DNA from: a virus
Direction: 5' to 3' (one strand)
Virus record (IMG/VR): IMGVR_UViG_3300046820_000327
Span: 1 to 60,395 of that record
Length of the DNA: 60,395 nt
In this document: positions 44,246-60,395 of the stretch, in pieces
Numbering within the stretch: position 1 is the stretch's first letter
Layout of the letters: every line of letters starts with the position of its first letter
Program-made: the position numbers and the translations under genes
The notes under the pieces: generated by a model
Seen by the model: only the letters and a program-made list of their open reading frames with translations
What the model was told of the DNA's origin: nothing
The model's database searches: none

Positions 44246-45037
44246 TTACTTGTTCACCATCAACGATGTCATGTTGCTAGGGATAATAATAGTCTGCACT
44301 TTACCGTCCTTGACCGCTTCGGAAATGTTCAGCTGAGCCTTGGCCTGCATGTACTGGATACTAGCGTTACCTTGATTAGCCAAGGCGGCCATGCGTTCAG
44401 CTTCAAGTCGGGCAGTTTTAACTTCAACTTCTTTTTGCTTTTGTTCGTTTTTAGCACGAACTAATTCGTTAGCACTAGCAACAACACTATCAGCTGGTAC
44501 AATGTTACGAATCAACACTTGACCAATAACCAAACTACCGTCTAGCTTTTCATCGGCTAGAGTCTTTTGGATTTGCTCTTTAATTGCCTGTTCCATTTGC
44601 TGGCGATTGTCAGCCATATCCAGTGCTTCGTACTTACGTGCTTCTTTGTAGACAGCGTTACGAGTAGTTTGGACAATGTAGTTATACATCAAGTAGATGT
44701 CACCGTTGTGGCGAGCATGGAATGCCTGGCTCTTTTGGCTATACAACTCAGCGACTTGAGCTTGATTGATGTTATAGATAACCACTGCATCAAAGTCTTT
44801 CATGGTGCTGTTGTCTTTGGCAACAGGAGTCATGTCCTCAAGTTTAACATTAACATCTTTGATTGGGAATGTAAGCACATCACCAATAATAGTTTGATTA
44901 AATGAACCAGGTAGCAGTTCGCCTTGCTGGACTTGTTTGTCGAAGCCTACTCGAACACCAACTTCACCTGTCTCAATACGGGTACAGCCAGTTGCAAAAA
45001 TAGACAACATAGCAATAGCAATAACACTCTTTTTCAT
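44246..45037 (-). CDS. SPFH/prohibitin-like lipoprotein
   Basis: 263 aa. A signal peptide with a lipobox-like FATGC site (Cys18) is followed by the SPFH domain: GEVGVRVGFDKQVQQGELLP, FPIKDVNVKLEDM and VIYNINQ. A long charged helix (about 195-235: NELVRAKNEQKQKEVEVKTA) is typical of prohibitins, which oligomerise into ring scaffolds on membranes and guard FtsH-type proteases. Carrying it as a lipoprotein rather than with a TM anchor is unusual. Neighbours are small membrane proteins. Confidence 0.85.
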   Translation of the reverse strand: MKKSVIAIAMLSIFATGCTRIETGEVGVRVGFDKQVQQGELLPGSFNQTIIGDVLTFPIKDVNVKLEDMTPVAKDNSTMKDFDAVVIYNINQAQVAELYSQKSQAFHARHNGDIYLMYNYIVQTTRNAVYKEARKYEALDMADNRQQMEQAIKEQIQKTLADEKLDGSLVIGQVLIRNIVPADSVVASANELVRAKNEQKQKEVEVKTARLEAERMAALANQGNASIQYMQAKAQLNISEAVKDGKVQTIIIPSNMTSLMVNK

Positions 45038-46435: not shown

Positions 46436-46634
46436 CCGCTTTAAAACGCTGGTAAAATGCTTGATTTATAGCGTCCATTTCAGCTTGCTCAACATAGAAA
46501 TCTGTAAGCGGATCGTAGTACTGGCCTTGTTTGTTGTCATAATACAACACTCTGCCCGAAAAGTTAAAAGGACCTTCTAGTCCCGTACGGGGACCAAATT
46601 TACCGGTAACGCTGGGAAGAGTGATGTAAGCCAT
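46425..46634 (-). CDS. Small early phage protein (69 aa)
   Basis: 69 aa: MAYITLPSVTGKFGPRTGLE, then VLYYDNKQGQYYDPLTDFYV and a helical end. It is a single-gene unit behind its own early promoter (46664-46692). Its last codons carry the -35 box of the next promoter. A ribosome-binding site (ACGGAGC) precedes the ATG. I do not recognise the family. Confidence 0.7.
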   Translation of the reverse strand: MAYITLPSVTGKFGPRTGLEGPFNFSGRVLYYDNKQGQYYDPLTDFYVEQAEMDAINQAFYQRFKAVAQ

Positions 46635-46663
46635 TTTTGCTCCGTTTTGTTACTATATGTTAT

Positions 46664-46692
46664 ATTATAGATTAAACGGAATTATTGGTCAA
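46664..46692 (-). promoter_or_regulatory. Early promoter TTGACC-17-TATAAT
   Basis: TTGACC (46687-46692), 17 bp with core AATTCCGTTTAAT, TATAAT (46664-46669) on the minus strand, about 30 nt before ATG 46634. Confidence 0.85.
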
Positions 46693-46693
46693 A

Positions 46694-46903
46694 TCAGCTG
46701 TTTACAGTGGCGAACGGGCTTAGATCTTCGGTGTTGTTTTTATGCAACAGAATGTTAGTACGGCTAGTAACCACTAACTTAGCCCTGTGCTCTAGTTCGT
46801 CCTGAAAGTCCCGTTCCACCCCGGCCATCCAAGCCTCATATTCCTGCTCATAAGGAAATGCTGTTTCATATTCTTCAATTAACAAATCTTTAATTTTAGA
46901 CAT
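46694..46903 (-). CDS. Small acidic phage protein (69 aa)
   Basis: From Met 46903 (MSKIKDLLIEEYETAFPYEQ), 10 nt after AAGGAG; an upstream Met at 46912 is only 1 nt from that site. It is helical and acidic (EYEAWMAGVERDFQDELEHR). It overlaps the cyclotransferase-like gene by 8 nt and ends where the next promoter begins. Function is unknown. Confidence 0.65.
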   Translation of the reverse strand: MSKIKDLLIEEYETAFPYEQEYEAWMAGVERDFQDELEHRAKLVVTSRTNILLHKNNTEDLSPFATVNS

Positions 46904-47345
46904 AATACTCATACTCCTTGTGTTGTTGATAATGTTTAACGAAATTAACGGCTTCTTTTATTTGTGCCACAGGAACTGCATTTTCTTTATAACCTTCATA
47001 TAGCATATCTAAATAACCTTGACTAGGCATAGAATCTATATTATCAGGTAACATAAAATAAGTAATTGCTTTAATGGATTTATTATTATGGATAACAGTT
47101 ACTTCTTTACGATCATAATAAAATGGATAACCTTCTAGTGCATCTAAGGATTTTAAACAATCGTCAGTAATGTCCCATAATACTCCGTCAACATAATATT
47201 CATCATTTTCCAGAATATCTGCGTGACGAGCAAAACGGAATTCGTAGTTAGGAAGTACAGCATGACCCAATGATTGGGCTTTAGGGCATCTAACTGCCAT
47301 CTGTCCCAAATTGGTGTTCATGCCATAGGCAAAATATTTTATCAT
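46896..47345 (-). CDS. Gamma-glutamylcyclotransferase-like protein
   Basis: 149 aa. YFAYGMNTNLGQMAVRCPKA is the N-terminal YGxNxx motif of the GGCT/AIG2 fold, and LDALEGYPFYYDRKEVTVIH supplies the catalytic-type Glu (in LEGYP). Family enzymes cleave gamma-glutamyl peptides into 5-oxoproline; some break glutathione or reverse gamma-glutamylamines. In a phage it could alter glutathione or nitrogen pools. The ATG lies 6 nt after the -10 box, so the mRNA is leaderless. Confidence 0.8.
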   Translation of the reverse strand: MIKYFAYGMNTNLGQMAVRCPKAQSLGHAVLPNYEFRFARHADILENDEYYVDGVLWDITDDCLKSLDALEGYPFYYDRKEVTVIHNNKSIKAITYFMLPDNIDSMPSQGYLDMLYEGYKENAVPVAQIKEAVNFVKHYQQHKEYEYYV

Positions 47346-47351
47346 ACCTAT

Positions 47352-47380
47352 AGTTTATATTAAACGGAATTATTAGTCAA
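47352..47380 (-). promoter_or_regulatory. Early promoter TTGACT-17-TAAACT, leaderless type
   Basis: TTGACT (47375-47380), 17 bp with core AATTCCGTTTAAT, TAAACT (47352-47357), then ATAGGT and ATG on the minus strand. Confidence 0.7.
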
Positions 47381-47538
47381 GTACGACGAGTATGGCGGTA
47401 TTCGCGACGTAGCCACCATTTGTACTTTTGGAAGTATTCGCTAAGAGTATAGCGTTCAAGGTTAAACATTTCGTGCTCGTTGCAGTTTTCGTAATACATG
47501 TCCTGCAACCATTTTCTAAAGGATGATTCTTTGCTCAT
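47377..47538 (-). CDS. Small phage protein (53 aa)
   Basis: A short gene read by hand: MSKESSFRKWLQDMYYENCN, then YTLSEYFQKYKWWLRREYRH and TRRT. It is basic and aromatic. It begins inside the end of the DUF5672 gene (23-nt overlap), and its stop falls inside the -35 box of the next promoter. I recall similar short proteins in T4-like marine phages. Function is unknown. Confidence 0.7.
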   Translation of the reverse strand: MSKESSFRKWLQDMYYENCNEHEMFNLERYTLSEYFQKYKWWLRREYRHTRRT

Positions 47539-48322
47539 TGTTGCCCTCACGTTCTAGCCAAGTGGCTACAGGTTGTAATAACTCTGGATTGTTAGCAGTC
47601 AATTGCTCTAGTAAGTAAGTATATAGATTTGTGTTTTGTCTGTCAATAGCCGCACGTAACACATGATGCCATTTGTAGACATTCCAACCTTTGTAACTCA
47701 TGCGTGGTATGATGTAGTCTAAATCAGTATCAGACATATAGGTAATAAAGTTCCAGGCACCATGGAATCCAAAACTGTCTCTAACCTGACCTAGTTCAAA
47801 ACTAAACTGTTCAGCCAGTGCTGTAGGAGCAAAACTAAAGCCATGCTGTTCAAGATGTTGTTTATGTCCAGCAATAACAGCATCTTCGGCCACAGGTTCC
47901 TCTGGTGTTAAACTAACTGTGCTACTATTGGCAATAAAGTCCAGTAGTCGCCTACTGCGTAAACTAAATCCACCATTGCCCACATTCTCGCCCTCGAGTT
48001 TCCACGGCCACGGTGCACCAATGTAATCGTAGTTTAGAAAATCATCAGTCCACATGTCTTGATTGTTGGCCATACCGTCCCACTGTACGTATAGTGCATG
48101 GTCAGTGTTGATATGTTCTGCTACACCCTTTAGCATTAGATTGGCATATTCTGCCATGCTATTAACCGGGGGCATTATAACATGGCGGGCACCGGGCAGT
48201 ATTTCTCTGTCAGAAATGATCAGCACTTCAGATGGGTTAATGTGATTAAGACTATGCTCGATTGCATACTTGGTTAAATCATACCACTGCCATTCAATGG
48301 CAACCATTGTTATGTTTTTCAT
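47516..48322 (-). CDS. DUF5672 glycosyltransferase-like protein
   Basis: 268 aa. Residues about 75-130 match DUF5672: LYVQWDGMANNQDMW, DDFLNYDYIGAPWPW and VGNGGFSLRSRRLLDF. The family lies in the nucleotide-sugar-dependent transferase group and is common in surface-glycan clusters. It overlaps the next gene by 4 nt. It is last of six genes with sugar-related signatures, and its acceptor is unknown. Confidence 0.75.
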   Translation of the reverse strand: MKNITMVAIEWQWYDLTKYAIEHSLNHINPSEVLIISDREILPGARHVIMPPVNSMAEYANLMLKGVAEHINTDHALYVQWDGMANNQDMWTDDFLNYDYIGAPWPWKLEGENVGNGGFSLRSRRLLDFIANSSTVSLTPEEPVAEDAVIAGHKQHLEQHGFSFAPTALAEQFSFELGQVRDSFGFHGAWNFITYMSDTDLDYIIPRMSYKGWNVYKWHHVLRAAIDRQNTNLYTYLLEQLTANNPELLQPVATWLEREGNNEQRIIL

Positions 48323-49215
48323 TTAACGTGATTTAAAATTACTTGTACAATAGCATCCACGTCCCAATCGGTATTGCATGGATAAGTTTGATTTTGTTCG
48401 CAGATTAGTTGACTTACTGGTCTAACTTGTCTTTCATGGCAACCGACACATGAAACACTGGCTTGTATAGTTGTACAGTTTTTACCAAGCTCGCCGTCCC
48501 TGTAAGGCAGAATATATTCTGGCCGTACATGACTTAGCAATGCTAGGATAGGACAAGCAGATGTTCCAGCAATGTGGAATGGGCCGGAGTCTACACCAAT
48601 AAACAATCGAGCATGGCTCATGAGCACATGTTCTTCTTGTAAGTTGTAGGCGCCTAGTCTGTTGACAATCAGTGGATGGTCGTTGATGCTAATGTCATTT
48701 GGGCCACCTACCAGCACAACTTTAGTATCAACAGTCTGTGTAAATACGCCTTCGAGGATTTGAAACCATGTTTGTGGTTGTATGTTTTTATTGGCCCAAT
48801 ACCAGTTACGCATGTGAATAACAATAAAATTGTCGCCGATGTTTTCTGCAATATCCTGTTCTACCCTTGCACGATCTTCGGGAGTAGGAAACAGTTCCAT
48901 ACTTTGATCGCGACCGTGGTCTAAACCAAATACTCTGTGAAAGTATGTATCAACGAAATGGTTCCTGGGATTAAACTCGTAACTGTTGTCCAAGTCGTAG
49001 ATCACATCATAATGCTTGCCAATGGGCATATCTTTATATACATTATCCACGTGTGGATTACGTCTGTAGACATCAATAAAGTCTGTACAGATATCAATAG
49101 TGGCTGTTGTGCCGTGAGCTTTTCTAAGTTCGCGGACAACACCTGTGGTCATAACAACATCGCCTAATGCGGCACGGCGTTTTACTAAAATTTTAATTGG
49201 GTTTTCAATTTTCAT
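48319..49215 (-). CDS. GT9-family (heptosyltransferase-like) glycosyltransferase
   Basis: 298 aa. KILVKRRAALGDVVMTTGVV is the N-terminal GT9 motif and LFIGVDSGPFHIAGTSACPI is the donor-site motif. GT9 enzymes add heptose or related sugars from ADP-sugars to LPS. A CxxC pair (CVGCHERQ) near the C-terminus is an extra feature. It overlaps genes on both sides by 4 nt. The target may be host LPS or a virion glycan. Confidence 0.85.
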   Translation of the reverse strand: MKIENPIKILVKRRAALGDVVMTTGVVRELRKAHGTTATIDICTDFIDVYRRNPHVDNVYKDMPIGKHYDVIYDLDNSYEFNPRNHFVDTYFHRVFGLDHGRDQSMELFPTPEDRARVEQDIAENIGDNFIVIHMRNWYWANKNIQPQTWFQILEGVFTQTVDTKVVLVGGPNDISINDHPLIVNRLGAYNLQEEHVLMSHARLFIGVDSGPFHIAGTSACPILALLSHVRPEYILPYRDGELGKNCTTIQASVSCVGCHERQVRPVSQLICEQNQTYPCNTDWDVDAIVQVILNHVK

Positions 49216-50429
49216 AATGATTCTACACGATATTCTGGAAAGTAACGCACAAACTTATCATGTTCGTTGTATCTGCGTAATAGTATTTTACTCTTTATCT
49301 CATCGTAAAAATTCCAAGCCAATGGAACAAATACAATTTTATCTTTGCTGGTATAATTACCTAGGTAGCTTGCTGGTACCACAGGAACATGACTTCCGGG
49401 TGTGTACTTGTCTTGTTTGAGTGGGTTATCATCAATGACAAAATCCATGTATAACTTACTATAGTTCAACAAAGTGTTGCCTTTGGCGGCGGCACCATAG
49501 CCAGCAATAATATATCCCAGCCTTGCATACGTGTCGATCTGCTCTTTAAGACGTTCTACTAAAAAGTATGCGTTGCCTGCCCAACTAACGTATGTTGTTT
49601 CATTTAGTAAACCTTGCTGTGCTTCTAGTGCAATTAAGTTGTCGACGTGTCGCGGACGACTTTGTGTTTTTGCAATTACAAAAATATAACTAGTACCATG
49701 CACTGGTGCCTTAACTACATCAATTAAATTTAACCCAGCACGTTTGCATAATTCGTTCATGCTGTTGACATTATAGAAATTAATGTGCTCGTGATATATA
49801 GTATCAAACTCGCCGTTAACAACCATATCGCATTGACTGGTTTGGATATATAGCCTACTGCTTTCGCTCATTACACGTTTAGCACGTTGTAAAAATGCCA
49901 CTGGATCAGGATTGTGTGCAAAGCTATTTTGTGCAGTAATAACATCAAATGTTTGATTAAAATGTTCTAGTGCGGCATCATCCCAAAATCCACAATAGAC
50001 ATTATGTTGTTGACTACTAATAGGATATAAGTTTTCTGCAGGGTCAACTCCGTAGGTAGTGTAGCCAGCCGATTTAAACGCATTCAACTGTGTACCATCG
50101 TTGCATCCAATGTCTAGCACAGAGCTTGGCCAAAAAGGCACAGTCTCTCTAACCCAACGTGCAAACCACGCAGAATGATCCTTTAATGTTTGACTTGTAC
50201 CCGACACATACAAATAGTTCTTGTAAATTAATTCTGGGTTTACTGCATGAGTTAATTGCAAGTGATAGCAATTGTTACACAAATTAACTGCCAGCGGATA
50301 TTTTGCTTCTGGTGTCGCAACATCATCAACAAAACTGTTGGCTAATGGTTGTTCGCCAAGGTCCAATGTTTTAGTTAAATGCTCGCCACCACAGGCAAGA
50401 CATTGAGTTAAGTGTTTTACGTTTTCCAT
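49212..50429 (-). CDS. Sugar C-methyltransferase (TylC3-like)
   Basis: 405 aa. An N-terminal zinc site (CLACGG ... CNNC, residues about 10-55) is followed by a SAM-binding domain (SVLDIGCNDGTQL) and a C-terminal domain (IAGYGAAAKGNTLL) as in NDP-sugar C-methyltransferases. Length, order and Cys pattern fit the Methyltransf_13/_23/_14 trio. It would make a branched deoxysugar together with the dehydratase encoded two genes upstream. Confidence 0.85.
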   Translation of the reverse strand: MENVKHLTQCLACGGEHLTKTLDLGEQPLANSFVDDVATPEAKYPLAVNLCNNCYHLQLTHAVNPELIYKNYLYVSGTSQTLKDHSAWFARWVRETVPFWPSSVLDIGCNDGTQLNAFKSAGYTTYGVDPAENLYPISSQQHNVYCGFWDDAALEHFNQTFDVITAQNSFAHNPDPVAFLQRAKRVMSESSRLYIQTSQCDMVVNGEFDTIYHEHINFYNVNSMNELCKRAGLNLIDVVKAPVHGTSYIFVIAKTQSRPRHVDNLIALEAQQGLLNETTYVSWAGNAYFLVERLKEQIDTYARLGYIIAGYGAAAKGNTLLNYSKLYMDFVIDDNPLKQDKYTPGSHVPVVPASYLGNYTSKDKIVFVPLAWNFYDEIKSKILLRRYNEHDKFVRYFPEYRVESL

Positions 50430-51145
50430 TAATTTTTAATTGGATGTCCATTGGGTGCAATATTACCTTCTACACCCACTGCATCTACTTCATAGACAGT
50501 TTCTTGATCTAAGAATTTAGCCAGTACATGCTCAATGTCAATGTACCCACCGTTGTTTACACGCTCAACAAAGCAAGCAAAACTACGTTCATATACATTA
50601 ATAATGTTGTCATTGAGTGCCCGCGGCCAAGACCACAAGCGAGCCATATACTGCCAAGGCTGTGTGGTTAGTTCTACTGGAAACTGACTTTTGTGTTTGC
50701 GACCAATAACAACCTTGTCTACTACATCTGGTGCTTGATATAAAGATAGGTCAAATTGATCATTAATAATGTATCTGCCAGACATCTTGTGGATACGATC
50801 GTATGTATCTAAATCGCCGGAGTCTTTAAGCAATTTTAATGCACGACCAAAGCACATGATTTCTGTTCCATTTTTTACAATGTCCCAATTGTCTGTGCTG
50901 TTGTACATACTGCGTACATCTGGTTCGTCAGTTAAATCAATAAAGATATCGCAGGCATCTTCAAGTGCTTGTGCTTGTTCGGGTTTTAGATCCTCGCCAG
51001 TTACTTCCATAATAACTACTTCAGCACCTGGCACATGGCGACGAATACTGGCCACAGTATCTAATGTTTGCTGTAATCTATCCGCAGGGTTGAATACACC
51101 AAAGCGGCTGTTAATAGCACTAGTTACAATAAAACAATGCTTCAT
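50429..51145 (-). CDS. Putative glycosyltransferase-like phage protein (238 aa)
   Basis: 238 aa: MKHCFIVTSAINSRFGVFNP, RLQQTLDTVASIRRHVPGAE, and DRIHKMSGRYIINDQFDLSL. The motif KMSGRY near a DxD-like DTYDRIH is seen in GT-A-like proteins of glycan clusters. It overlaps its neighbours and lies between the dehydratase and the C-methyltransferase, which supports a sugar-transfer role. The family is not confidently named. Confidence 0.6.
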   Translation of the reverse strand: MKHCFIVTSAINSRFGVFNPADRLQQTLDTVASIRRHVPGAEVVIMEVTGEDLKPEQAQALEDACDIFIDLTDEPDVRSMYNSTDNWDIVKNGTEIMCFGRALKLLKDSGDLDTYDRIHKMSGRYIINDQFDLSLYQAPDVVDKVVIGRKHKSQFPVELTTQPWQYMARLWSWPRALNDNIINVYERSFACFVERVNNGGYIDIEHVLAKFLDQETVYEVDAVGVEGNIAPNGHPIKN

Positions 51146-52173
51146 TTACGCAACCAACGTGTGTTAATTAATGTCCAGTCCACTACTTCTTTAACACGAT
51201 CGCTAAACTTGATCTTTGGCTCCCATCCTAGACTCTTTAGTAGTCCGCCATCCAATGCATAACGCAAATCGTGACCAGGACGTGAGCTGTGGAAGTCAGT
51301 CATTTCGTAAACAAGTTCTTTACCCACTGCACCAGCAATCATTTTGGCTAGTGTTAGGTTGTCAATTTCTTCTGGGCCTACTAAGTTAAACTTAGGACAC
51401 TTAGCACCACCGTAATCACCTGTGTGTTTATAATCTTTTAGTTTATCTAAAATAAACATTAAGCCATCTGCTACGTCCTTAGCGTGAATATAATGTCGTG
51501 ATCCTGCTTTGGTTTTGCTTGGGTCACTGTGTACAGTTACTAACTCGCCGTCACGAGCTTTTTGGATTACCATTGGAATAAACTTCTCTGGGTGTTGACG
51601 TTCACCAAACACGTTCATAGTGTGTGTTACCACAATAGGAAGTTTGTAAGTGTTTTCAAACGCTACACAGATTTCCTCAGCGGCCGCTTTTGATGCTGAG
51701 TATGGATTTGTTGAATTGTAACGATCGTACTCTTTGTAGTTTACACCTTCCGGTGCTGGACCAAATACTTCATCAGTGGAGAAGTAAACAAATCGTTCCA
51801 AGTTCTTTAGTGTGCGAGCATAGTTAAGCAAGTTGGTTGTACCAACTACGTTATCCATAACAAATTCCATCGGGAATTCAATTGAACGGTCAACATGTGA
51901 TCCTGCGGCCAAATGTAGCACAATTTCCACAGGACCAATTTGGTCTTGGATCATTGGATTCAGTTCTGCTTTTAAGTCGTGGAATACAACTTTAAGACGT
52001 TTGCGTTGCTCTGGGTCGATGTCTTGCATCATATCAGCAAGACGATTTAAGTTACCACTAAAGTCCAGGCGATCTAGACTTACAATTTCCCAATCTGTGG
52101 TACGTAGGATTCTTTCAATTACGTGGTGTGCAATGAAACCTGCACCGCCAGTGATTAGCACTCTTTTTGACAT
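51142..52173 (-). CDS. NAD-dependent NDP-sugar dehydratase/epimerase
   Basis: 343 aa. The Rossmann motif GGAGFIAHH (residues 9-17), the STDEVFGP loop and YSASKAAAEE with the Tyr-x3-Lys pair are typical of the extended SDR family, closest to dTDP-glucose 4,6-dehydratase by the STDEV motif. It gives a 4-keto-6-deoxy sugar that the C-methyltransferase could use. A late motif (AATAAATA) lies 29 nt upstream, so the sugar cluster is probably expressed late. Confidence 0.85.
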   Translation of the reverse strand: MSKRVLITGGAGFIAHHVIERILRTTDWEIVSLDRLDFSGNLNRLADMMQDIDPEQRKRLKVVFHDLKAELNPMIQDQIGPVEIVLHLAAGSHVDRSIEFPMEFVMDNVVGTTNLLNYARTLKNLERFVYFSTDEVFGPAPEGVNYKEYDRYNSTNPYSASKAAAEEICVAFENTYKLPIVVTHTMNVFGERQHPEKFIPMVIQKARDGELVTVHSDPSKTKAGSRHYIHAKDVADGLMFILDKLKDYKHTGDYGGAKCPKFNLVGPEEIDNLTLAKMIAGAVGKELVYEMTDFHSSRPGHDLRYALDGGLLKSLGWEPKIKFSDRVKEVVDWTLINTRWLRK

Positions 52174-52201
52174 TTAAACTCCAGTGTGTATTTGATTTTA
52201 A

Positions 52202-52209
52202 TATTTATT
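52202..52209 (-). promoter_or_regulatory. Late promoter motif AATAAATA
   Basis: Exact NATAAATA on the minus strand, extended as AATAAATATT, 29 nt before the dehydratase ATG (52173); it overlaps the stop of the GT17 gene. Confidence 0.55.
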
Positions 52210-53053
52210 TAGGCAGGAAGTTCCTGGCCGAATCATCTGAACCAAAAATAATGTAATCTCGATATTGGTCCACACGTTCTCTTAATTCTAATGGAAAGTA
52301 ATCGTCTAAATTGACCATTACAAATTGTTTTGCTACACGAGGATTAAATCCACGCTGTTGAGCGATACTGGACTTAACATCAATACTGCCCAATACATCT
52401 GCGGTGTTTAATTCGCTGTGTGCAAAACTTTTAATTTTATTTTTAATAAACTCGTCGTCGCCGATATAGGTAAAATGCCAGCCAGCATGTTCTAGCATAG
52501 CTACAGTACCATCGTCAAAATTATATGGTAACTCGTGTAATACCCAACGACTACGTCTTAGATCCTCGGGACTGGTTAACGCACCTACTTGTCCGGCTGT
52601 GGCCCAGACGCAATAACTTTCATTGTCATTTATCAACATGTAGTTAAACTTAAAGTTGAAATAGGGCATACGCAAACCGTAGGCTTGTCTAGGATTTTTT
52701 CTAATGTAGTCAACAGTCTCGGGACGAATGAATTCGTCTACGTCACTGATGATAGCAACGTCTGTTGCATCAGCGTTAACCAAACCACGTAAGATAGCAT
52801 CACGCTGGAAACGTTCATTCTGCCAAGGGTCAGAACTCATGGGCATGTTATCTACTACCACATGAATGATCTTGTCACTGTACTTTTGATAACGATGTTC
52901 GTTGTCTTTGTAGTAAAGATCTTTGGGTTGATTTTGAAATGTAGTAGTTGCTTCCACTAAAACAAAATAATCAACCTTGGCGTATAGTTCTGCTAATCGT
53001 AGATCCAGTAATTCTAGTTCGTTGTAAAATGTAAAACAGTCATAGATTTTCAT
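52205..53053 (-). CDS. GT17-family glycosyltransferase
   Basis: 282 aa. MKIYDCFTFYNELELLDLRL and YFVLVEATTTFQNQPKDLYY with IISDVDEFIRPETV match family 17, named after beta-1,4-N-acetylglucosaminyltransferase. The DVDE acid cluster binds metal and nucleotide sugar. Related genes occur in T4-like marine phages and cyanobacterial or proteobacterial glycan islands. It lies upstream of the late motif of the sugar cluster, so its own start point may be the promoter at 53246. Confidence 0.85.
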   Translation of the reverse strand: MKIYDCFTFYNELELLDLRLAELYAKVDYFVLVEATTTFQNQPKDLYYKDNEHRYQKYSDKIIHVVVDNMPMSSDPWQNERFQRDAILRGLVNADATDVAIISDVDEFIRPETVDYIRKNPRQAYGLRMPYFNFKFNYMLINDNESYCVWATAGQVGALTSPEDLRRSRWVLHELPYNFDDGTVAMLEHAGWHFTYIGDDEFIKNKIKSFAHSELNTADVLGSIDVKSSIAQQRGFNPRVAKQFVMVNLDDYFPLELRERVDQYRDYIIFGSDDSARNFLPK

Positions 53054-53061
53054 ATAACTAT

Positions 53062-53217
53062 TTACTCATCAGATTTAGCGTCGGCTTCCAAATATTGTTT
53101 GATTACACGTATAGCTTTACGGCTAGTATCATAGACAAATTCTTTGGTGTCATCTTCTGTGGTCACAGCCAAAATAAAACCGTTCGCTACTTTTCGAACT
53201 TCAATTGATTCAAACAT
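53062..53217 (-). CDS. 51-aa phage protein with its own promoter
   Basis: A short gene read by hand: MFESIEVRKVANGFILAVTT, then EFVYDTSRKAIRVIKQYLEA and a short acidic tail. GAGGT is the ribosome-binding site and the start codon is 24-29 nt past a strong promoter. It looks like a small alpha/beta fold. The type occurs in T4-like marine phages as an unnamed protein. The GT17 gene follows after 8 nt. Confidence 0.7.
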   Translation of the reverse strand: MFESIEVRKVANGFILAVTTEDDTKEFVYDTSRKAIRVIKQYLEADAKSDE

Positions 53218-53245
53218 AATTACCTCTAGAGTTAGTTGAACTACT

Positions 53246-53274
53246 ATAATAACATAGCTAGAAATTTAAGTCAA
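53246..53274 (-). promoter_or_regulatory. Sigma70-type promoter TTGACT-17-TATTAT
   Basis: TTGACT (53269-53274), 17 bp, TATTAT (53246-53251) with extended -10 TGT on the minus strand, directly behind the porin terminator. Confidence 0.75.
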
Positions 53275-53275
53275 C

Positions 53276-53297
53276 AAAAAGCCCACCGAAGTGGGCT
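53276..53297 (-). terminator. Rho-independent terminator of the porin gene
   Basis: Stem AGCCCAC/GTGGGCT with a TTCG loop, followed by TTTTT on the minus strand, 25 nt after the porin stop codon. Confidence 0.92.
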
Positions 53298-53321
53298 GAT
53301 TGATTTGCTCTAAATTTTGGT

Positions 53322-54260
53322 TTAGAAACGATGTGTTAAACCAACACCATACCGCTGTGCTTGGTTAGCTCTTGCTGGAGCATCTTGATTTTGGTAAGCA
53401 ATATCAACTGCTGTACGCTTGCTGAAGTTATAAGCAAAACCCACTGTGGATGTTTTTTGATCCACAACATCTTTTACACCATAACCAATTTTAAAATCAA
53501 CTTTGGTTGTGACTGGGTGCAACGCACTCAATGACCATGCTTTGTAATCAACATTAGAGATTTTGTCTTGGCTGTAGCCAGCAAATACTCGTGTTTTAGT
53601 TGGCAATGTGTATGCCGCATTTAACAATGTTGTTTCATCTGTGCCAGCTGTAGTGTAACGGAAAGCACCAAGGTGTAGGTCTTTTACTGGATTCAACACA
53701 GTATAAAATACTTGTGTATCTTCTACAGTTGCACTTTCACTTTGGCCGTTTTGGTAACCAACGATTACGCCTGCAATTGGGGTGGCTTCAATGAAAATAC
53801 CATTACCGATACGGTTGTTACGATAAGAGTGAGTTTTGTTTGCGGCACTGAACAATGGCAATACTGCAAATGCATCAAAGCGTGATTTACCGTACTGGAA
53901 CATGGCATTGTCCTTACGGCCCATATCAATGCTACCAAATTTATTTGATAGACCTACTGTACTTTGACGATCACCAAATTTACTGGCATCAGCCGATGCT
54001 GGGTTATCTGCGGCAATGCTGGTATCAATCATGAAGTTTGCACGTATACCGTCGCCTAAATCTTCAGAACCTCTGAAGAAGATGTTGCTGGTGTTGCTGT
54101 CAATTTGTGTTGCCTTGGCACTACCTGCACTGGTATTATTTGTAAAATACTGACTGATACGACCACCAATTTGCACATTTGACGAAGCAAGTACATTTGT
54201 CTGTGCTTGAGCGCCAACTGCTGTGGCCAAAAGACCAACTGCTAATAGTTTCTTAAACAT
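53322..54260 (-). CDS. Outer-membrane porin (betaproteobacterial type)
   Basis: 312 aa. MFKKLLAVGLLATAVGAQA is a signal peptide (cut before QT). The mature protein is a general porin: GGRISQYFTN, FRGSEDLGDGIRANFMIDTS, and DRQSTVGLSNKFGSIDMGRK. It ends in YGVGLTHRF with the terminal Phe that BamA recognises. It is a bit shorter than Burkholderiales porins (340-400 aa). It has a strong ribosome-binding site (AAAGGAG), its own promoter and its own terminator, so it can be expressed independently. It would change outer-membrane permeability or replace a receptor. Confidence 0.93.
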   Translation of the reverse strand: MFKKLLAVGLLATAVGAQAQTNVLASSNVQIGGRISQYFTNNTSAGSAKATQIDSNTSNIFFRGSEDLGDGIRANFMIDTSIAADNPASADASKFGDRQSTVGLSNKFGSIDMGRKDNAMFQYGKSRFDAFAVLPLFSAANKTHSYRNNRIGNGIFIEATPIAGVIVGYQNGQSESATVEDTQVFYTVLNPVKDLHLGAFRYTTAGTDETTLLNAAYTLPTKTRVFAGYSQDKISNVDYKAWSLSALHPVTTKVDFKIGYGVKDVVDQKTSTVGFAYNFSKRTAVDIAYQNQDAPARANQAQRYGVGLTHRF

Positions 54261-54293
54261 TCTAGTTTTCTCCTTTAGTTGAAACTTGATAAA

Positions 54294-54323
54294 ATTTTAC
54301 ACAACAGGACACTACGGTGTCAA
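54294..54323 (-). promoter_or_regulatory. Porin promoter TTGACA-18-TAAAAT
   Basis: TTGACA (54318-54323), 18 bp, TAAAAT (54294-54299) preceded by TGTG on the minus strand, giving a leader of about 27 nt. The layout equals the promoter at 58623-58652. Confidence 0.8.
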
Positions 54324-54477
54324 GTTATTTGTGTATCAATTTTTGATTTTATGCTAGCGAAGTATTCGCATACGGAAGGGCCCACGCATTTAAGACATAG
54401 AGGTCCTATATTGGTCCGACGTCAGTGTAACTGGCGTTGCTTTGTAAAAATATTTATTTACAACAAATTTATTTAGT
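54324..54477 (-). other. Long porin leader, shared with the Bug leader
   Basis: The 217-bp gap before the porin holds a late motif, then GCAACGCCA (rc of 54432-54440) and TGACGTCGG (rc of 54416-54424), then TCCGTATG near 54369-54377 and CTAGCA near 54352. The same elements in the same order occur at 58653-58792. GGACC is repeated directly (GGACCaatataGGACC). No short gene of the usual type is apparent in it. Confidence 0.7.
54451..54458 (-). promoter_or_regulatory. Late promoter motif AATAAATA
   Basis: AATAAATATT on the minus strand about 20 nt after the HNH stop. It sits in the loop of a possible TTGTAAA/TTTACAA stem. The porin start is about 190 nt further on. Confidence 0.5.
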
Positions 54478-54942
54478 TTATTTTTTGTTCAAATACTCAT
54501 CTATATGACTTTGTATTTGTGGCCTACGTTTTCCGTTATAATATGCTTGATGTGTTGGGCACAACGGCACAATATTATGGTCCGATGCGTCAGTTTCGTC
54601 ACCGTTGACAGCAACAATGTTCACCAATTTTTCTTCCCCGCATACACAGCAACGTTTTTCAATCTTAGTTAAATCTGGTAGCTGTATGTCGCGTTTTTGT
54701 TCATGACTCCAACGCTCAAGATACTGTTTGATTGCTGGTAATACATCCTCGGGCCAGTGACTGTGCAAATACCTGTGGTGTGTTGGGCACAATGGCAATA
54801 CATTTTCTGGGCGTTGATCCGTTTCTACTTCGTTCATGTGATGCACGTCTAGTACGCCATCCTCTCCGCATACTACGCATTTACGCTCATGGTGCTGAAA
54901 ACACACCCATCTAAATCCATTTTGAAAGTCTGTAATTTCCAT
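54478..54942 (-). CDS. Tandem HNH-type nuclease domain protein
   Basis: 154 aa with two similar halves. The first (residues about 22-60) has CVVCGEDGVLDVHHMNEV and NVLPLCPTHHRYLHSH, a complete HNH zinc-bound nuclease site. The second (about 97-140) has CCVCGEEKLVNIVAVNGDET and NIVPLCPTHQAYYN: the Cys pairs remain, but the catalytic HH is lost. It may be active only through the first half. The start overlaps the halogenase stop by one base. It could be a homing-type or packaging-type nuclease. Confidence 0.75.
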   Translation of the reverse strand: MEITDFQNGFRWVCFQHHERKCVVCGEDGVLDVHHMNEVETDQRPENVLPLCPTHHRYLHSHWPEDVLPAIKQYLERWSHEQKRDIQLPDLTKIEKRCCVCGEEKLVNIVAVNGDETDASDHNIVPLCPTHQAYYNGKRRPQIQSHIDEYLNKK

Positions 54943-56600
54943 TATTTTCTACTCCTAAATTCGTCAAAAATTTCTCTACTGCTTTTGCCATCAAACCTAT
55001 TAGCTCGTAACCACTCGTACGCATTAGGCCACTTTAGTGATCTTATGTACTTGTTGCGAGCACGGTTAAATGCAAAATAGGCTTGTGCCATTTCAATATC
55101 TTCTTTGGTCGGAACTGCAAACGGCCAGTTTTTAACTTCTGTCTTGGTCTGGATAGCCATTTTAACATAGATATGTTCCCAATAGTTCAAGTAACGTTTG
55201 CTGATATCTGTTTTTTGTTCAGTTAAAATTTGTTCAAAGTCTTCAATTAAGTTAAACTTCCTAGCCGCTTCTCTACGCTTTTCCCAATACAATCCAGACC
55301 GATTACTGAATCCGTGATGTGTGCGTACACGAAGATCTCTCTCGGCCGTAATACGACAACGATTTTCGTTAAACAAATCTCTGCCAGCCTCAATAGTTGT
55401 TTCGCCAGACTGCAATTGCTTGCGTACTTTAATCAGATCCTCGAGTCCCTTAGTGTGCTCGCTAAAGGTAGGTGCGTCCCAAGGATCGCTTAGGCCCGAA
55501 CTAACTCCAAGTTGAATACAGTTATGATTCCATGTCTTGCTGTAAAAGCCCGGCTTCCATTGAATAAGTCTAGGTTCTACTATGCGAGTACCATCAGTAA
55601 CTTTTTTGATACGCTCGAGGGTCACTTCTGGATCTACCCAGTTGCTGTTAAACACATATCCGTTGCCGCGGCGATGATATAGATTTAATTGAAAACGCCA
55701 CCCGTGGTCCTCACCATGAATGTTAGTAGCACAAATCATTTCTTTATGTGGATCTGTGTAATGGCTGGGACATACCCACGCACTGTTATTAGTGTATTCT
55801 GCTCTATCCTGCCAACTGGTGTTGCCAATTTTGTTAGTTAATACGCGACCAAAACCTGTACAGTCAATGTACAAGTCTGCTTGAAGTTTTTCTAAGTTGT
55901 CATCACGAACAATATAGTCAATACTGCCACTGTTGGTTAACCCAACGTCTTTTACGTTGGTCAAAATATGTGTTAAGTTGCCAGTGTTGCGTTGATAGCA
56001 CTGGCTTTTTAATAAGCTGACCATTTGTTCAGCGTCCATGTGGAAGCTGGTGCCACCATAGTGACGTATAATCTTTTTATTATTTTCGTCATAGGGCACA
56101 CATGGATTTTGCACAAAGTATTGAGTATCCTGCAGTTCTACCAAGAAGTCGTCCATGGTTTTACCACCGGGCTTGTTTAACAAGTCCTTGTTTAAGTACA
56201 ACCAAACATTGGCCACACCCATGTCGCCATCTTGTTTGTTCCAATGCTCATAGACATCATTATAGTCAATTCCATTAAAGTAATTGACCAGGCCCTTGAT
56301 TTTTACGTTGGTTAACTGGCCGTTGCCTATGTCTTCTCCGTCGTTCAGGAAACCAAAGTTGCGAACACCAAACTTGTATATGCTACCGGTTTCCCTCATG
56401 ATCAACTGATCGTTATCAATTCCCAGCAAATCTCTCCAAACATAAGGACTTTCAAACCCCAATGTTTCGCCAACTCCTAGTCTAGGAATAGTTGGAGACT
56501 CTAGTACTGTTATACGCAGGTCAGGGCAATGGTTCTGTAGTGCCAGTGCCGTAAACCATCCTGCAAAACCTCCACCTACTATAGCTACGTGATTGATCAT
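54942..56600 (-). CDS. Flavin-dependent tryptophan-halogenase-like enzyme
   Basis: 552 aa, the family's normal length. GGGFAGWFTALAL (residues 9-21) binds FAD, LGVGETLGFE (41-50) is the GVGE motif, and GSIYKFGVRNF places the catalytic Lys at 76 (Lys79 in PrnA/RebH). The GWxWxIP motif is changed to GWRFQLNLYHRRGNGYVFNS, so it lacks the second Trp and the Ile-Pro. Such enzymes chlorinate or brominate indole rings with FADH2 from a separate reductase. Related genes occur in cyanophages. The substrate and even the reaction are open. Confidence 0.8.
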   Translation of the reverse strand: MINHVAIVGGGFAGWFTALALQNHCPDLRITVLESPTIPRLGVGETLGFESPYVWRDLLGIDNDQLIMRETGSIYKFGVRNFGFLNDGEDIGNGQLTNVKIKGLVNYFNGIDYNDVYEHWNKQDGDMGVANVWLYLNKDLLNKPGGKTMDDFLVELQDTQYFVQNPCVPYDENNKKIIRHYGGTSFHMDAEQMVSLLKSQCYQRNTGNLTHILTNVKDVGLTNSGSIDYIVRDDNLEKLQADLYIDCTGFGRVLTNKIGNTSWQDRAEYTNNSAWVCPSHYTDPHKEMICATNIHGEDHGWRFQLNLYHRRGNGYVFNSNWVDPEVTLERIKKVTDGTRIVEPRLIQWKPGFYSKTWNHNCIQLGVSSGLSDPWDAPTFSEHTKGLEDLIKVRKQLQSGETTIEAGRDLFNENRCRITAERDLRVRTHHGFSNRSGLYWEKRREAARKFNLIEDFEQILTEQKTDISKRYLNYWEHIYVKMAIQTKTEVKNWPFAVPTKEDIEMAQAYFAFNRARNKYIRSLKWPNAYEWLRANRFDGKSSREIFDEFRSRK

Positions 56601-56603
56601 ATA

Positions 56604-57698
56604 TTATATCTCATAAAAAGGCGTTATCATGCCATGAAAGTTATTACTGGCAGCATTAAAGTATTGGCTGTCTACTAGACTTTTAATTAGTTCGAGGCCT
56701 TGACTATGTTGAGTTTTTAAAACATCGTCGCTGTTTAGTATGCCTTTGTCTGAACTAACTGTTGTGTCTGTGCTTTTTCTTAACTGAAACCAATTTGGGT
56801 TCCAGGTTGGATAAACTTGCTCTCTAACCACCGACTGATAATAGTCAATGGGTATACCTGGTGTAGGTGGCCAAGAAATCAAGGAATGCAGTTCTGGGCG
56901 AGCCTGGAAATATCGTTTTAGCATGTGTGCTTGTTTTCTTAATATAGGCTCAGCTTCAGGTGCCCAATAAAACCATTCAGTTTCTGCATTGCCTACTTGT
57001 GCTTGATCGGGAGTCATACTATATCCCACTACATCAAGAAAGTAAATGTAGTACTTACCGTCTTTGATTACTATTCTAGGCTTATCAACTCCCATTATGT
57101 AACCAACACGATTCTTTGTGTGTACGCTATCAATATGCTGTAGTGATCTGCGTTGCTCAATAAAAGGATTAAGCATGACGTTACGATTGTCCCAGAAATC
57201 TTCTGGCAGTGACAGGTCTCGGTGTTCCCACCAATCGTACAAGGTTAACTTAATGTCAGGGTATTGCTGTGAGATCCATTGAAAATCTATCTTGGCTCTA
57301 AATTCCCACTCGGCAGTTACGTTGTTGCTGTAGTGCCATTCCGTGGTTGTGGCTTCGTAATTGTTGCCCATGCCCTTGTAGCTGTATCTACTTACTATTT
57401 CATCTAGCTTGATATTGTTTTGTAAAAATACATCTAGTATATTTCTACTGTCCGATCCACCACTGTAACCTAGTATCAGATAGTCGTAAGTATCACGTAA
57501 TTGTTGAGCACGTTGTCGGTACAGTTCCCACAAACTTTCTGTGGGTTCTTGTTTCCACTTAACTTGATCAAAAAACTCGCGATGAAACACCCACTCAGGG
57601 TGGGTGTTTGTTTCTGTTCCTTTAAGTAGAGCAGGTATCTTGTGCTGATATTCCTGTGCGCCTACTCGATAAAAACCTAATCGCTTGTTAATTTGCAC
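56604..57698 (-). CDS. PP-loop (asparagine-synthase-like) ATP-pyrophosphatase
   Basis: 364 aa. LILGYSGGSDSRNILDVF (about residues 73-90) is the SGGxDS PP-loop that binds ATP and adenylates a substrate. The rest is unlike asparagine synthetase or QueC: no glutaminase domain is present, and Trp-rich helices follow (WPPTPGIPIDYYQSVV). Adenylation of a carboxylate or a nucleobase and then amide or other bond formation is expected. The gene lies 3 nt before the halogenase gene and overlaps the Bug gene by 11 nt, so a joint pathway is likely. Confidence 0.75.
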   Translation of the reverse strand: MQINKRLGFYRVGAQEYQHKIPALLKGTETNTHPEWVFHREFFDQVKWKQEPTESLWELYRQRAQQLRDTYDYLILGYSGGSDSRNILDVFLQNNIKLDEIVSRYSYKGMGNNYEATTTEWHYSNNVTAEWEFRAKIDFQWISQQYPDIKLTLYDWWEHRDLSLPEDFWDNRNVMLNPFIEQRRSLQHIDSVHTKNRVGYIMGVDKPRIVIKDGKYYIYFLDVVGYSMTPDQAQVGNAETEWFYWAPEAEPILRKQAHMLKRYFQARPELHSLISWPPTPGIPIDYYQSVVREQVYPTWNPNWFQLRKSTDTTVSSDKGILNSDDVLKTQHSQGLELIKSLVDSQYFNAASNNFHGMITPFYEI

Positions 57699-58602
57699 GT
57701 AAAAACTTTGCTAGTTGTTCAATTTTGGCTTGGCTTTGTTGCGGTGTACCATCCACTACATTGTGATAAGGTGCTGTACGCTTAAGGAAACTCTGCACGT
57801 CGTCGCTGTGTATAGCTTTACGCAATCTTTTGTTTAATTCAAGCACGTCTGCATCCGAGGCATCAGTTCTAGCAAAAAGAATAACCATGCTGGTGATATT
57901 CTCAATGTCTGGCCAACGCTTGATTAAATTTTCTGTTGTGCTTCTATCTCCAGTAACACTGGCATGTGCAATTTCTTTAATACCAGTTACACCCGACATC
58001 ATTCTAATACTACCACCATCAACGTATGTCTCAAGAGAACCGTCTTTAAGATTAACAAGTGCGTCAGTTGGCTTTCTATAAAGAACCAACTCGTACTTAG
58101 CACCAACATGATCTAGTGCATGAGTTAAAACCTTGCTACTGGTTAATGCAGGTGCACCAACTAAAATTGGCTTTCCTGTTTGACGACTACGTGCTATTAC
58201 TGCATCCAATGTTGCTGGACCACCTTCTGGTGTTAAGATAAACTGCGTGAATTTCAAATAATCCACTATAGGTTTAAGTGTATTAACAGCCGGGGATTGT
58301 GCATTGGCTTTTTGATTAAATCCAGCTACACCGTTACCAGCACAGAAGATTGCCGGCTCAGTGCTTTTAATAAACTCACGATGTGCAATAATTTGATCTG
58401 CACCAGTCATATTTTTATGAATTACATTGACATTGTTTTGTTTTGCGTAAGTATCCATTAGATTTCTACACATAACATCCACAACGCTACCAACTGCAAA
58501 AGGTGTATATACTGCTAATGTTTCAGTTTTTATAATTGAGCCGGGCTGTGCAAATGCTGTAGTTGATACAACAGCCAAGGCTAAAAGGATCTTTTTGATC
58601 AT
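57688..58602 (-). CDS. Bug/TctC periplasmic solute-binding protein 1
   Basis: 304 aa from Met 58602 (MIKKILLALAVVSTTAFAQP), which is 7 nt behind AGGAG; an earlier Met at 58632 lies upstream of that site. The signal peptide is cut after AFA. The mature part follows the TctC/Bug fold: ETLAVYTPFAVGSVVDVMCR, the NMTGADQIIAHREF segment (usually GAGGxIAA) and a long C-terminal helix. Bug proteins bind carboxylates or amino acids and hand them to TTT transporters. They are abundant in Burkholderiales. It heads the halogenase operon. Confidence 0.85.
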   Translation of the reverse strand: MIKKILLALAVVSTTAFAQPGSIIKTETLAVYTPFAVGSVVDVMCRNLMDTYAKQNNVNVIHKNMTGADQIIAHREFIKSTEPAIFCAGNGVAGFNQKANAQSPAVNTLKPIVDYLKFTQFILTPEGGPATLDAVIARSRQTGKPILVGAPALTSSKVLTHALDHVGAKYELVLYRKPTDALVNLKDGSLETYVDGGSIRMMSGVTGIKEIAHASVTGDRSTTENLIKRWPDIENITSMVILFARTDASDADVLELNKRLRKAIHSDDVQSFLKRTAPYHNVVDGTPQQSQAKIEQLAKFLRAN

Positions 58603-58622
58603 AGATATTCTCCTAGTAAGTA

Positions 58623-58652
58623 AGTTTAACATATTGCTAGTAGGATTGTCTA
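58623..58652 (-). promoter_or_regulatory. Promoter of the Bug/halogenase operon
   Basis: TAGACA (58647-58652), 18 bp, TAAACT (58623-58628) with TGT before it on the minus strand. The leader to ATG 58602 is about 14 nt and contains the AGGAG site. Confidence 0.65.
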
Positions 58653-58756
58653 CATACGGAGCGGCGTTCTGGGCATATCATGCCAGTAAAAGAGTTTTAC
58701 TACTCTTAGCGTCACTATTGTAACCGACGTCAACAGAATGTTGGCGTTGCTTTAAA

Positions 58757-58764
58757 TATTTATC
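58757..58764 (-). promoter_or_regulatory. Late promoter motif GATAAATA
   Basis: GATAAATATT on the minus strand overlaps the end of the hairpin that follows the second Bug gene. ATG 58602 is about 155 nt downstream. Confidence 0.55.
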
Positions 58765-58782
58765 TCCCCGAAGGGAGATAAA
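58759..58782 (-). terminator. Terminator-like hairpin after Bug gene 2
   Basis: Perfect 10-bp stem TTTATCTCCC/GGGAGATAAA with a TTCG loop on the minus strand, but no long T-tract after it (TATTTAAAG). It probably gives partial termination or protects the 3' end. Confidence 0.65.
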
Positions 58783-58792
58783 CTTGATTTAA

Positions 58793-59707
58793 TTAATTTG
58801 ATACTTTAACGTTTTGAGTTAAACGTTTCCATTGAGAAATTTGTCCACTAAACCATGCATCCAATTGATTGTCTGCCATTTGATTATTAGGAGTACAATT
58901 GTCAGCGGCATTTGCGTCTTTTACGCTCTGTGCTCTGCTGGCTTCTACTAAAATCTTTCGGATACTAGCAAATTTTTCTGCAGGCATCTTTTGAGATGCA
59001 AAGATCTGTTGAGGTGTGCTCATGTCTAGTAATTCTTTGCTGAATCCTTGATTGGCCAATAGCTCTGTGCCTTTGACACTAACTTTACCAGTCTGGCCTA
59101 ACCAGTAAATTCTTTTTACCGATGTTGCATCTGTGTACTGCTCGCTGTCACCATGAAATCCCACGCTAAAATCAACTGCTCCACTTAAAACACCTAACAG
59201 GGCTTCGCTGGTACTCTTAAATGGTACAATGGTTAGGTTAGGATAGTTTTTAGCAATCTGGATGGATACTAAGTGTGTGGTTGTCCCCATACCGCTCATA
59301 CCAATTGATAGTTGTGCATTGGGTGGAACTTCTTTCCATGACTTGTACTTTGCACTAGAAATAACAAAAGGTGAAATGCACATTGGCAAAATACTACGGA
59401 AATCTTCCATACGGTGGCTGTCGGCAGGGAATAGGTTAGGACGAATAAAACCAGCCGAACTATTAATCCACAGGGTATTTGTTGGGTTGTTGTTTGTATA
59501 ATTGGCCGCAATAGTACCACCAGCACCGGGCTTTGTATCGAACACAAAATTGTATTGTGTTTGCAATTTGTTTGATTCTTCGGCTAATGCTCGATAATAA
59601 TTTGATGCTTTATCGGCTGCTGTCCACGAGTAGGCCAGTGTAATAGTCTCACGTGCTGTGGCTGTAAAACTGAGGGTTGCTAAAATAATAGCTATTAATT
59701 TTTTCAT
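58793..59707 (-). CDS. Bug/TctC periplasmic solute-binding protein 2
   Basis: 304 aa. MKKLIAIILATLSFTATA is the signal peptide. KPGAGGTIAANYTNNNPT matches the GAGGxIAA ligand loop better than copy 1, and SIGMSGMGTTTHLVSIQIAK and GAVDFSVGFHGDSEQY fit the domain-2 pattern. It delivers a carboxylate-type ligand to a host tripartite transporter. The two Bug proteins share low identity and are not a recent duplicate. It has an AAAGGAG site and lies 23 nt after dCMP deaminase. Confidence 0.88.
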   Translation of the reverse strand: MKKLIAIILATLSFTATARETITLAYSWTAADKASNYYRALAEESNKLQTQYNFVFDTKPGAGGTIAANYTNNNPTNTLWINSSAGFIRPNLFPADSHRMEDFRSILPMCISPFVISSAKYKSWKEVPPNAQLSIGMSGMGTTTHLVSIQIAKNYPNLTIVPFKSTSEALLGVLSGAVDFSVGFHGDSEQYTDATSVKRIYWLGQTGKVSVKGTELLANQGFSKELLDMSTPQQIFASQKMPAEKFASIRKILVEASRAQSVKDANAADNCTPNNQMADNQLDAWFSGQISQWKRLTQNVKVSN

Positions 59708-59730
59708 TGATTAATCTCCTTTATGTTAAA

Positions 59731-60264
59731 TTAATTTTTAGTTTGGGTTACTGTTACCCCGGACTGTGCAAGAAACTTAATTCCATCATCGCTTCGATAA
59801 GAGCTACGATAGAACACACTGTTAATGCCAGACTGATAGATAAGTTTGGCGCAGTCTAAACAAGGGGCATGAGTGATAAAGATAGTAGCACCATCGCCAG
59901 ATTCGCTACTTTTTGCCAGTTTAGATATTGCATTCGTTTCGGCATGCAATACCTCGGGTTTGGTTTTAAGACTATAGCGATTCATACGTGCATTACACGT
60001 ATCGTCGCTGTGATATGTAATCATTTCACCTTCGTAGGGCCAGCGTTCTTCGATTTCTTCGGGACTTAACCAGCCGCCAGTATCGCCCATCCATTCTACA
60101 TCTTCGCAGTTGTTATCCCAACCTGCGGGCATACCATTGTAGCCGATAGAGATAATACGATCCTCTTTGACGATAATGGCTCCTACATGCAATCTCTGAG
60201 CATGGCTCAACTCAGCAAATACTTCTGCTGTTTTCATGTAGGCGTTAATTAGTTTGGGTTTCAT
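59731..60264 (-). CDS. cd: dCMP/deoxycytidylate deaminase
   Basis: 177 aa. The zinc site is HAETNAI (His-Ala-Glu) and APCLDCAKLI (PCxxC). GAIIVKEDRIISIGYNGMP is the N-terminal substrate strand. It turns dCMP into dUMP for dTMP synthesis and pairs with ribonucleotide reductase in making dNTPs. T4-like length. An insert (about 60-95) with Cys and His (NNCEDVEWMGD, HSDDTCNARM) may bind a second zinc, as in T4 dCMP deaminase. Its start overlaps the gene upstream (ATGA). Confidence 0.93.
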   Translation of the reverse strand: MKPKLINAYMKTAEVFAELSHAQRLHVGAIIVKEDRIISIGYNGMPAGWDNNCEDVEWMGDTGGWLSPEEIEERWPYEGEMITYHSDDTCNARMNRYSLKTKPEVLHAETNAISKLAKSSESGDGATIFITHAPCLDCAKLIYQSGINSVFYRSSYRSDDGIKFLAQSGVTVTQTKN

Positions 60265-60395
60265 CTTCCTCGGCCTGCTGATTTCTTAGCGGGTTTGTTG
60301 GAACCAACTGGGTTCTTAAACTTGGCTTGCTGTACCTGTTGTTGTTTCTCTAGCGGTACACGAGGATTATCTACCACTGCCTTTGCGGCATTGGC
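60261..60395 (-). CDS. C-terminal end of an unknown gene, partial
   Basis: The last 44 codons of a gene entering from the right edge: ANAAKAVVDNPRVPLEKQQQ, then FKNPVGSNKPAKKSAGRGR and TGA. The stop overlaps the dCMP deaminase ATG. The tail is basic and probably disordered. Nothing can be said about the function. Confidence 0.6.
   Translation of the reverse strand, partial: ANAAKAVVDNPRVPLEKQQQVQQAKFKNPVGSNKPAKKSAGRGR

Follow-up and report, generated by a model that had tools for sequence, protein, structure and literature searches.

Why should a virus carry a gene for an outer-membrane porin? The 60,395-base IMG/VR virus record analysed here, to which we refer at its full length as the window, encodes such a protein, and the initial annotation of this DNA proposed that it might raise nutrient uptake, replace a lost receptor or block superinfection by competing phages. 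The product of the gene is a complete Gram-negative porin ending in phenylalanine, just as had been claimed, with a Pfam Porin_4 match at an E-value of 2.3e-28 (100.3 bits against a curated cut-off of 27) and a Porin_1 match at 4.4e-11. Its N-terminus, MFKKLLAVGLLATAVGAQAQ, resembles a signal peptide (judged visually and with a rough script), and the terminal residue F312 is present. The gene and the features surrounding it are given in Table 1.

Table 1. Positions of the porin gene, its signals and the neighbouring genes in the window
Feature	Position	Strand	Details
Intrinsic terminator	53275-53297	minus	Stem 53297-53280, AGCCCAC-TTCG-GTGGGCT then TTTTTG
Porin gene, 312 aa	53322-54260	minus	ATG start; C-terminus ...THRF
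Ribosome-binding site AAGGAG	54270-54275	minus	Sequence
Sigma-70-type promoter TTGACA-18-TAAAAT	54294-54323	minus	TTGACA 54323-54318, TAAAAT 54299-54294
Porin 5' leader RNA element	54329-54450	minus	Covariance model 75.3 bits, E 8e-16; training-set copy
Leader hairpin P1, conserved	54440-54416	minus	Within the porin leader element
HNH gene	54478-54942	minus	Between porin and halogenase-like gene
Tryptophan-halogenase-like gene	54942-56600	minus	phrog_2928 3e-58; two genes upstream of porin
PP-loop (SGGSDS)-like protein	56604-57698	minus	No Pfam match; relatives beside TctC/TctA genes in other phages
Secreted TctC-like protein	57688-58632	minus	No Pfam match; 17-23% identity to phage TctC
Second leader RNA copy, upstream of TctC-like gene	58613-58760	minus	100.5 bits; training-set copy
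TctC-family periplasmic solute-binding protein	58793-59707	minus	PF03401 2.4e-7; phage relatives 72-80% identical

The porin gene is phage DNA: by codon usage it is among the most typical of the 48 window genes longer than 450 bases (rank 46), and relatives are encoded in a further 64 IMG/VR records. Its GC content of 0.414 compares with a gene mean of 0.415, and the tetranucleotide composition of the region is unremarkable for the window. Phage genes are found on both sides; to the left of the porin lie, in order, glycosyltransferase family 17, epimerase, C-methyltransferase-like and heptosyltransferase-family genes, and farther left phage helicase, tail and ribonucleotide reductase genes. 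Phage carriage, which the initial annotation had asserted, is supported. An assembly chimera or bacterial contamination at 53200-54500 is extremely improbable: no second assembly of the exact junction was found and the relatives are just 29-37% identical to the window porin, but the composition of the gene, the presence of the same family in the 64 other viral records, some of them of 200-525 kb, and the lack of a closer bacterial gene in the bacterial genomes searched all speak against it.

The window's UvsW-like helicase is a replication gene of the jumbo T4-like phage lineage and displays 57% identity to that of Sinorhizobium phage Phosso (469 kb) and 53% to that of Atu_ph07 (490 kb). A T4-type Gp23 major capsid gene is absent from the 60-kb fragment; of the 27 records searched for it, 17 have the gene, among them all ten related ones larger than 280 kb. 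Nine of those ten large records also carry a porin, and in the tenth, G113, the Porin_4 match fell below the cut-off. In addition, the window contains an SPFH/Band 7 lipoprotein-like gene (44246-45037), the N-terminus of which is shared with a group of porin-bearing phages (L268-L272:4000-4794).

The initial annotation described the gene as a self-contained cassette, giving neither its strand nor the leader RNA element. The cassette description is borne out by a promoter of its own, which matches the consensus at 11 of 12 positions and is joint best among 53 sites in 46500-60395, and by a terminator 24 nt beyond the stop codon. Because shuffled sequence is expected to contain 38.6 ± 6.4 such sites against the 53 observed, a lone sigma-70 site is weak evidence. 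The pattern is nevertheless repeated among the family members: of 63 family porin genes (the 64 relatives, less two that are cut off at the 5' end, plus the window porin), 53 are followed by a terminator within 45 nt, compared with 30 of 604 other ORFs at the same loci, and a promoter with at least 10 of 12 consensus positions is located at -40 to -130 in 34/63 and 96/604 respectively. The association of the family porins with promoters and terminators is beyond chance.

The relatives were not readily detected. Peptide-pattern scans with the window porin alone revealed none in viral contigs or genome contigs, tblastn of the window porin against 50,697 phage records gave no match, and tblastn of a porin from a second phage clade (clade II, see below) against phage records gave one weak match, in an unannotated 9.9-kb record. 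The family containing the window porin (clade I) was reached only because an alignment with the porin of record G106 was used as query; this alignment retrieved four viral loci, and a five-row alignment 64, in records of up to 524,565 bases. This search of related phage contigs, which the initial annotation had suggested, indicates that the gene is not the isolated oddity that it first seemed, but part of a widespread phage porin clade. When records were selected by other genes, Porin_4 was present in 2/80 records of UvsW relatives and in 9/41 TctC-bearing records, seven of the latter over the cut-off; enrichment of porins in TctC-bearing phages at the level of records was discarded as a line of evidence, as porin density was not significantly above that in UvsW relatives (p 0.69). 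Two further loci, L156 (in G113) and L157 (in G107), encode small secreted proteins of 183-195 aa that resemble outer-membrane barrels and whose match to Porin_4 is restricted to the end of the profile.

The designation 'betaproteobacterial porin' was roughly right, although the closest relatives of the window porin are in fact phage porins. In the same search these scored 105-129 bits (best 128.8) and the best Herbaspirillum porin 51.7, and the best bacterial score among 399 Burkholderiales genomes was 62.6 bits; with a profile built without the window, the window porin scored 209.6 bits and the best bacterial protein 126.5. A tree with bacterial porins had also been proposed, and both our first tree (11 phage and 36 bacterial porins) and a 41-locus clade-I tree contained two phage-only clades. 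Clade I (42 rows) was phage-only with a support of 99/95, the rows having been deduplicated at 90% identity and those below 240 aa dropped (64 to 41 loci, with ba_L207 also dropped). When the best profile hits from 392 family-level genomes were added, and 12 bacterial rows on long branches and 13 redundant phage ones removed, clade I (29 rows) remained phage-only with a support of 100/100, and clade II (six rows) had 99/95. The window porin was placed inside clade I, apart from the closest bacterial porins. Because both bacterial sets are samples from larger groups, a closer host gene may exist outside them. The dN/dS values of 0.11-0.33 across 15 close pairs indicate that the phage porin family is under purifying selection, and the window porin gene can be regarded as an intact, cellular-type uptake gene of a selected family in a viral genome.

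To what kind of channel does the sequence correspond? An AlphaFold model built from a 47-row alignment (pLDDT 86.5, pTM 0.79; an earlier model from five rows, with a pLDDT of 46.7, was unusable) predicts 16 strands spanning residues 28-311, with a constriction loop L3 (118-149) between strands 5 and 6. The best solved structure found by Foldseek was Omp32 with malate (2fgq; E 1e-17, TM 0.76, 22% identity), which phmmer also matched at 7.3e-9. Omp32 of Comamonas (Delftia) acidovorans (2fgq, 1e54) is an anion-selective, 16-stranded barrel with an L3, from which the window porin differs in being phage-encoded and in sharing only ~22% identity in the structural alignment; anion selectivity of the window porin would be a prediction from the fold match. 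This predicted fold, with Omp32-malate as its top match, supports a role in uptake.

The surface loops point in a second direction. Measured between strand midpoints in 41 clade-I and 21 bacterial rows, using one sequence alignment and the strand limits of the window model, loops L4-L8 of clade I are shorter than those of the closest bacterial porins, with medians of 14 against 17 (L4), 14 against 20 (L5), 14 against 16 (L6), 15 against 21 (L7) and 19 against 27 (L8), whereas L1-L3 and all seven periplasmic turns are of near-equal length; the window porin itself has lengths of 17, 15, 15, 16 and 19 for L4-L8. As modelled, the shortened loops would fit receptor avoidance as well as they fit uptake. 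Because of this shortening, the serious rival is receptor replacement or superinfection exclusion, in which the phage porin would displace or dilute the receptor porins of the host while the cell stays permeable, so that competing phages or the phage's own progeny do not adsorb to the infected cell or its debris. A standalone promoter and terminator would suit such a gene, and there is a precedent in the Lc porin of phage PA-2 (NmpC), likewise a phage-borne porin gene, which brings about receptor-type conversion in a temperate lambdoid phage and is not known to belong to an uptake cluster. However, the loops of the clade-II phage porins are long, with a median of 44 for L8.

The genes beside the porin bear on this choice. 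Upstream of it in the window lie genes for a TctC-family solute-binding protein, a TctC-like protein and a protein that we take to be of PP-loop type from its SGGSDS motif. TctC, DctP, SBP family 3, SDF or PstS genes were found within 8 kb of the porin at 19/64 clade-I loci (12/42 groups at 90% identity), compared with 0/80 loci centred on UvsW and similar in total length (Fisher test, 3.6e-8, or 8.5e-7 when groups are counted). The UvsW loci are an imperfect control, because they come from a replication region, and in 30/42 porin groups the flanks lacked every uptake family that was queried. Among the matches listed, the uptake genes sit upstream on the same strand, with the exception of one PstS gene. 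Considering groups with both flanks present, an uptake gene was upstream in eight groups and downstream in one within 3 kb (p 0.016), and upstream in seven and downstream in one within 5 kb (p 0.031).

Gene order is also shared between records. In clade II, G042 and G108 have the common order porin-TctA-TctC-like-PP-loop with porins ~41% identical, and porin and TctA are adjacent in these two large records; in G110/G111 TctA is ~20 kb from the porin. G122 has the order SBP3-SDF symporter-201 aa-Asp/Glu racemase-porin, and L173 has AhpC, AhpD, PP-loop-like, TctC and DctP, followed by the porin. No TctA was found in the 60,395-base window, in a search given 26 of the 88 collected records, and the inner-membrane step would therefore be the host's or be encoded outside the fragment. 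TctA matches in the phage collection were set aside as phage evidence, since they included small unannotated records and one of 691 kb that is filed under Salmonella enterica.

Several other families were observed at these loci. AhpC (peroxiredoxin), AhpD-like (CMD family), PP-loop-like and TctC genes form a recurrent phage block, in several cases also with DctP (L108:11215-14480, L163:9343-13617, L133:2980-10909, L173:1137-6644 and L117:7548-12484). The PP-loop-like family accompanies TctC/TctA at L091:17912-19141 and L162:4624-5835 as well as in the window, and in several records a gene for a ~300-aa protein with a DUF4214 match precedes the porin gene at a distance of 146 nt (L216:6953-7855, from a cluster of 12 loci).

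The porin and the TctC-like gene of the window are, in addition, preceded by the same RNA element. The pattern GCAACGCCA-N-TGACGTCGG occurs twice in the window, with zero copies expected, once in the porin leader and once in front of the TctC-like gene; a fixed-gap search for this repeat gave nothing, and a variable-gap search found both copies. A scan of viral contigs yielded 106 stretches at 80 or more loci. These gave 63 distinct contexts, of which 55 were kept (GC below 0.52, at least one inner pair and a location outside same-strand ORFs of at least 150 aa) and 44 aligned. Among the matches listed, the genes following the 55 kept copies were DctP (14), porin (5), TctC/TctC-like (5) and TctA (3), counts that include the window's own porin and TctC-like gene (one each); a further 26 were unassigned and two copies had no next gene. 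Because many of the 26 belong to one radical-SAM-like family, the leader also precedes genes other than those for uptake. Covariation is seen in two helices of the leader, with a score of 0.388 compared with 0.143 ± 0.015 in shuffles (0/500), and sliding the helix partners lowered the score to 0.029-0.109. No Rfam family matched the element.

The hexamer TAARTA lies within 22 nt before the leader in 53/55 copies, mostly at 5-6 nt, compared with 13/1260 background windows. The T4-type late promoter consensus is TATAAATA, the exact form of which precedes 8 of the 55 copies, and the hexamer is possibly a T4-late-promoter-like motif; in the porin copy of the window the spacing is unusual. A covariance model of the leader gave nine matches in porin neighbourhoods (57/64 clade-I loci, L133 (= L175 record), the window and eight other loci); in the UvsW loci, of which 68 out of 80 were searched, there was a single marginal match (21 bits, E 0.05). 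Both window copies were in the training set, and L258, L259 and L261 are from the same records as training rows; the new matches were those of G106, before TctC, and of G042, G110 and L247, before DctP (the DctP start in G042 being placed by position). In the other clade-I loci searched (57/64 and L133), no leader was found before the porin itself. Leader copies are located at L290-L368 as well as in the window; L314 encodes, behind the leader, a flavoprotein similar to the tryptophan-halogenase-like one of the window. Matches to the betaproteobacterial and permuted tmRNA models were seen in phage records at L296:6161-6488, L361:7064-7380 and L365:3337-3764, that of L296 directly preceding a porin leader.

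The recurrent adjacency to uptake genes and the shared leader, to the extent that sequence can tell, support an uptake role, and of the three functions proposed by the initial annotation nutrient uptake is the one best supported by gene context. Receptor replacement or exclusion does not predict the recurrent linkage to solute-binding proteins and carriers or the shared leader; we consider it the main rival and, although on the unlikely side, one with an appreciable chance of being correct, and it is compatible with uptake, since the two are not exclusive. Alternatively, a large phage with a long latency might replace lost porin for membrane integrity or turgor, with no specific nutrient role. 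The host-type promoter and strong terminator do suggest a standalone, continuously expressed gene, and relatives carry other outer-membrane proteins such as the small barrels of G113 and G107, but envelope maintenance leaves the linkage to TctC, DctP, SDF and TctA unexplained and seems improbable to us.

On balance, we lean towards the view that the window porin is the phage form, resident for a long time, of a betaproteobacterial general porin, and that it carries out the outer-membrane step in a programme of nutrient uptake encoded by a jumbo T4-like phage; it is best read as a putative auxiliary entry channel for anionic nutrients. The host-type promoter, possibly together with a late promoter, would drive its expression, and the Sec and BAM machinery of the host would export it to the outer membrane. 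An Omp32-like pore could then admit small anions, e.g. carboxylates or acidic amino acids, which would pass to phage solute-binding proteins (TctC and DctP, and in relatives SBP family 3 and PstS) and from these to host or phage carriers, in some relatives TctA or the SDF symporter. Intake might in this way continue while synthesis of host envelope proteins fails, feeding the replication of a genome of ~300-500 kb. It is a tentative further proposal, short of probable, that giant T4-like phages possess an uptake regulon, in which a late-type promoter and a covarying leader of ~120 nt precede porin, TctC, DctP and TctA genes and a porin stripped of its outer loops lets nutrients into the cell while presenting no receptor to phages.

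Neither porins nor transporters are new in phages. OmpC-like porins are annotated in uncultured Caudovirales phages (UniProt A0A6J5L4P1 and A0A6J5LP82), to which the window porin had structural matches with E-values of 3e-18 and 1e-9 at 16-17% identity. A parallel in arrangement, a virus porin beside a transporter gene, comes from viruses of ocean oxygen-minimum zones, for which glnK-amtB-ompL modules with predicted promoter and terminator are described and read as uptake genes (PMC8115048). Those porins are of OmpL type and Bacteroidetes origin and occur with an ammonium transporter on short contigs (PMC8115048), whereas the phage porins described here are of Porin_4 type, belong to jumbo T4-like phages, accompany carboxylate-type carriers and form a deep phage-only clade. 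A SUP05 virus contig likewise carries a tripartite tricarboxylate transporter gene, tctA, as a putative auxiliary metabolic gene, recognized from a domain hit only and, in the sections consulted, with no porin (PMC4164917). Elsewhere, nmpC is listed as a DLP prophage porin (PMC5811629) and the KdgM porin is mentioned only within a pathway (PMC12285232). In the open-access PMC literature we found no account of jumbo T4-like phages sharing a large porin clade exclusive to phages, and none that links such a clade to carboxylate-type uptake genes.

Auxiliary genes of phages are mostly discussed as enzymes. The occurrence of virus-borne porins beside uptake genes suggests that the nutrient intake of the infected cell is rebuilt and, if this is true, the import of nutrients through both membranes comes under the control of giant phages. 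A widespread, selected, phage-only porin clade would allow a connection of phage genome size with nutrient limitation of the host to be tested, and further members of the uptake programme could be sought through the sequence of the leader RNA. Should the regulon be real, these phages would possess a coordinated carboxylate route from the outer membrane to the cytoplasm with a cis-acting RNA of their own, possibly a nutrient-sensing riboswitch or a stability element.
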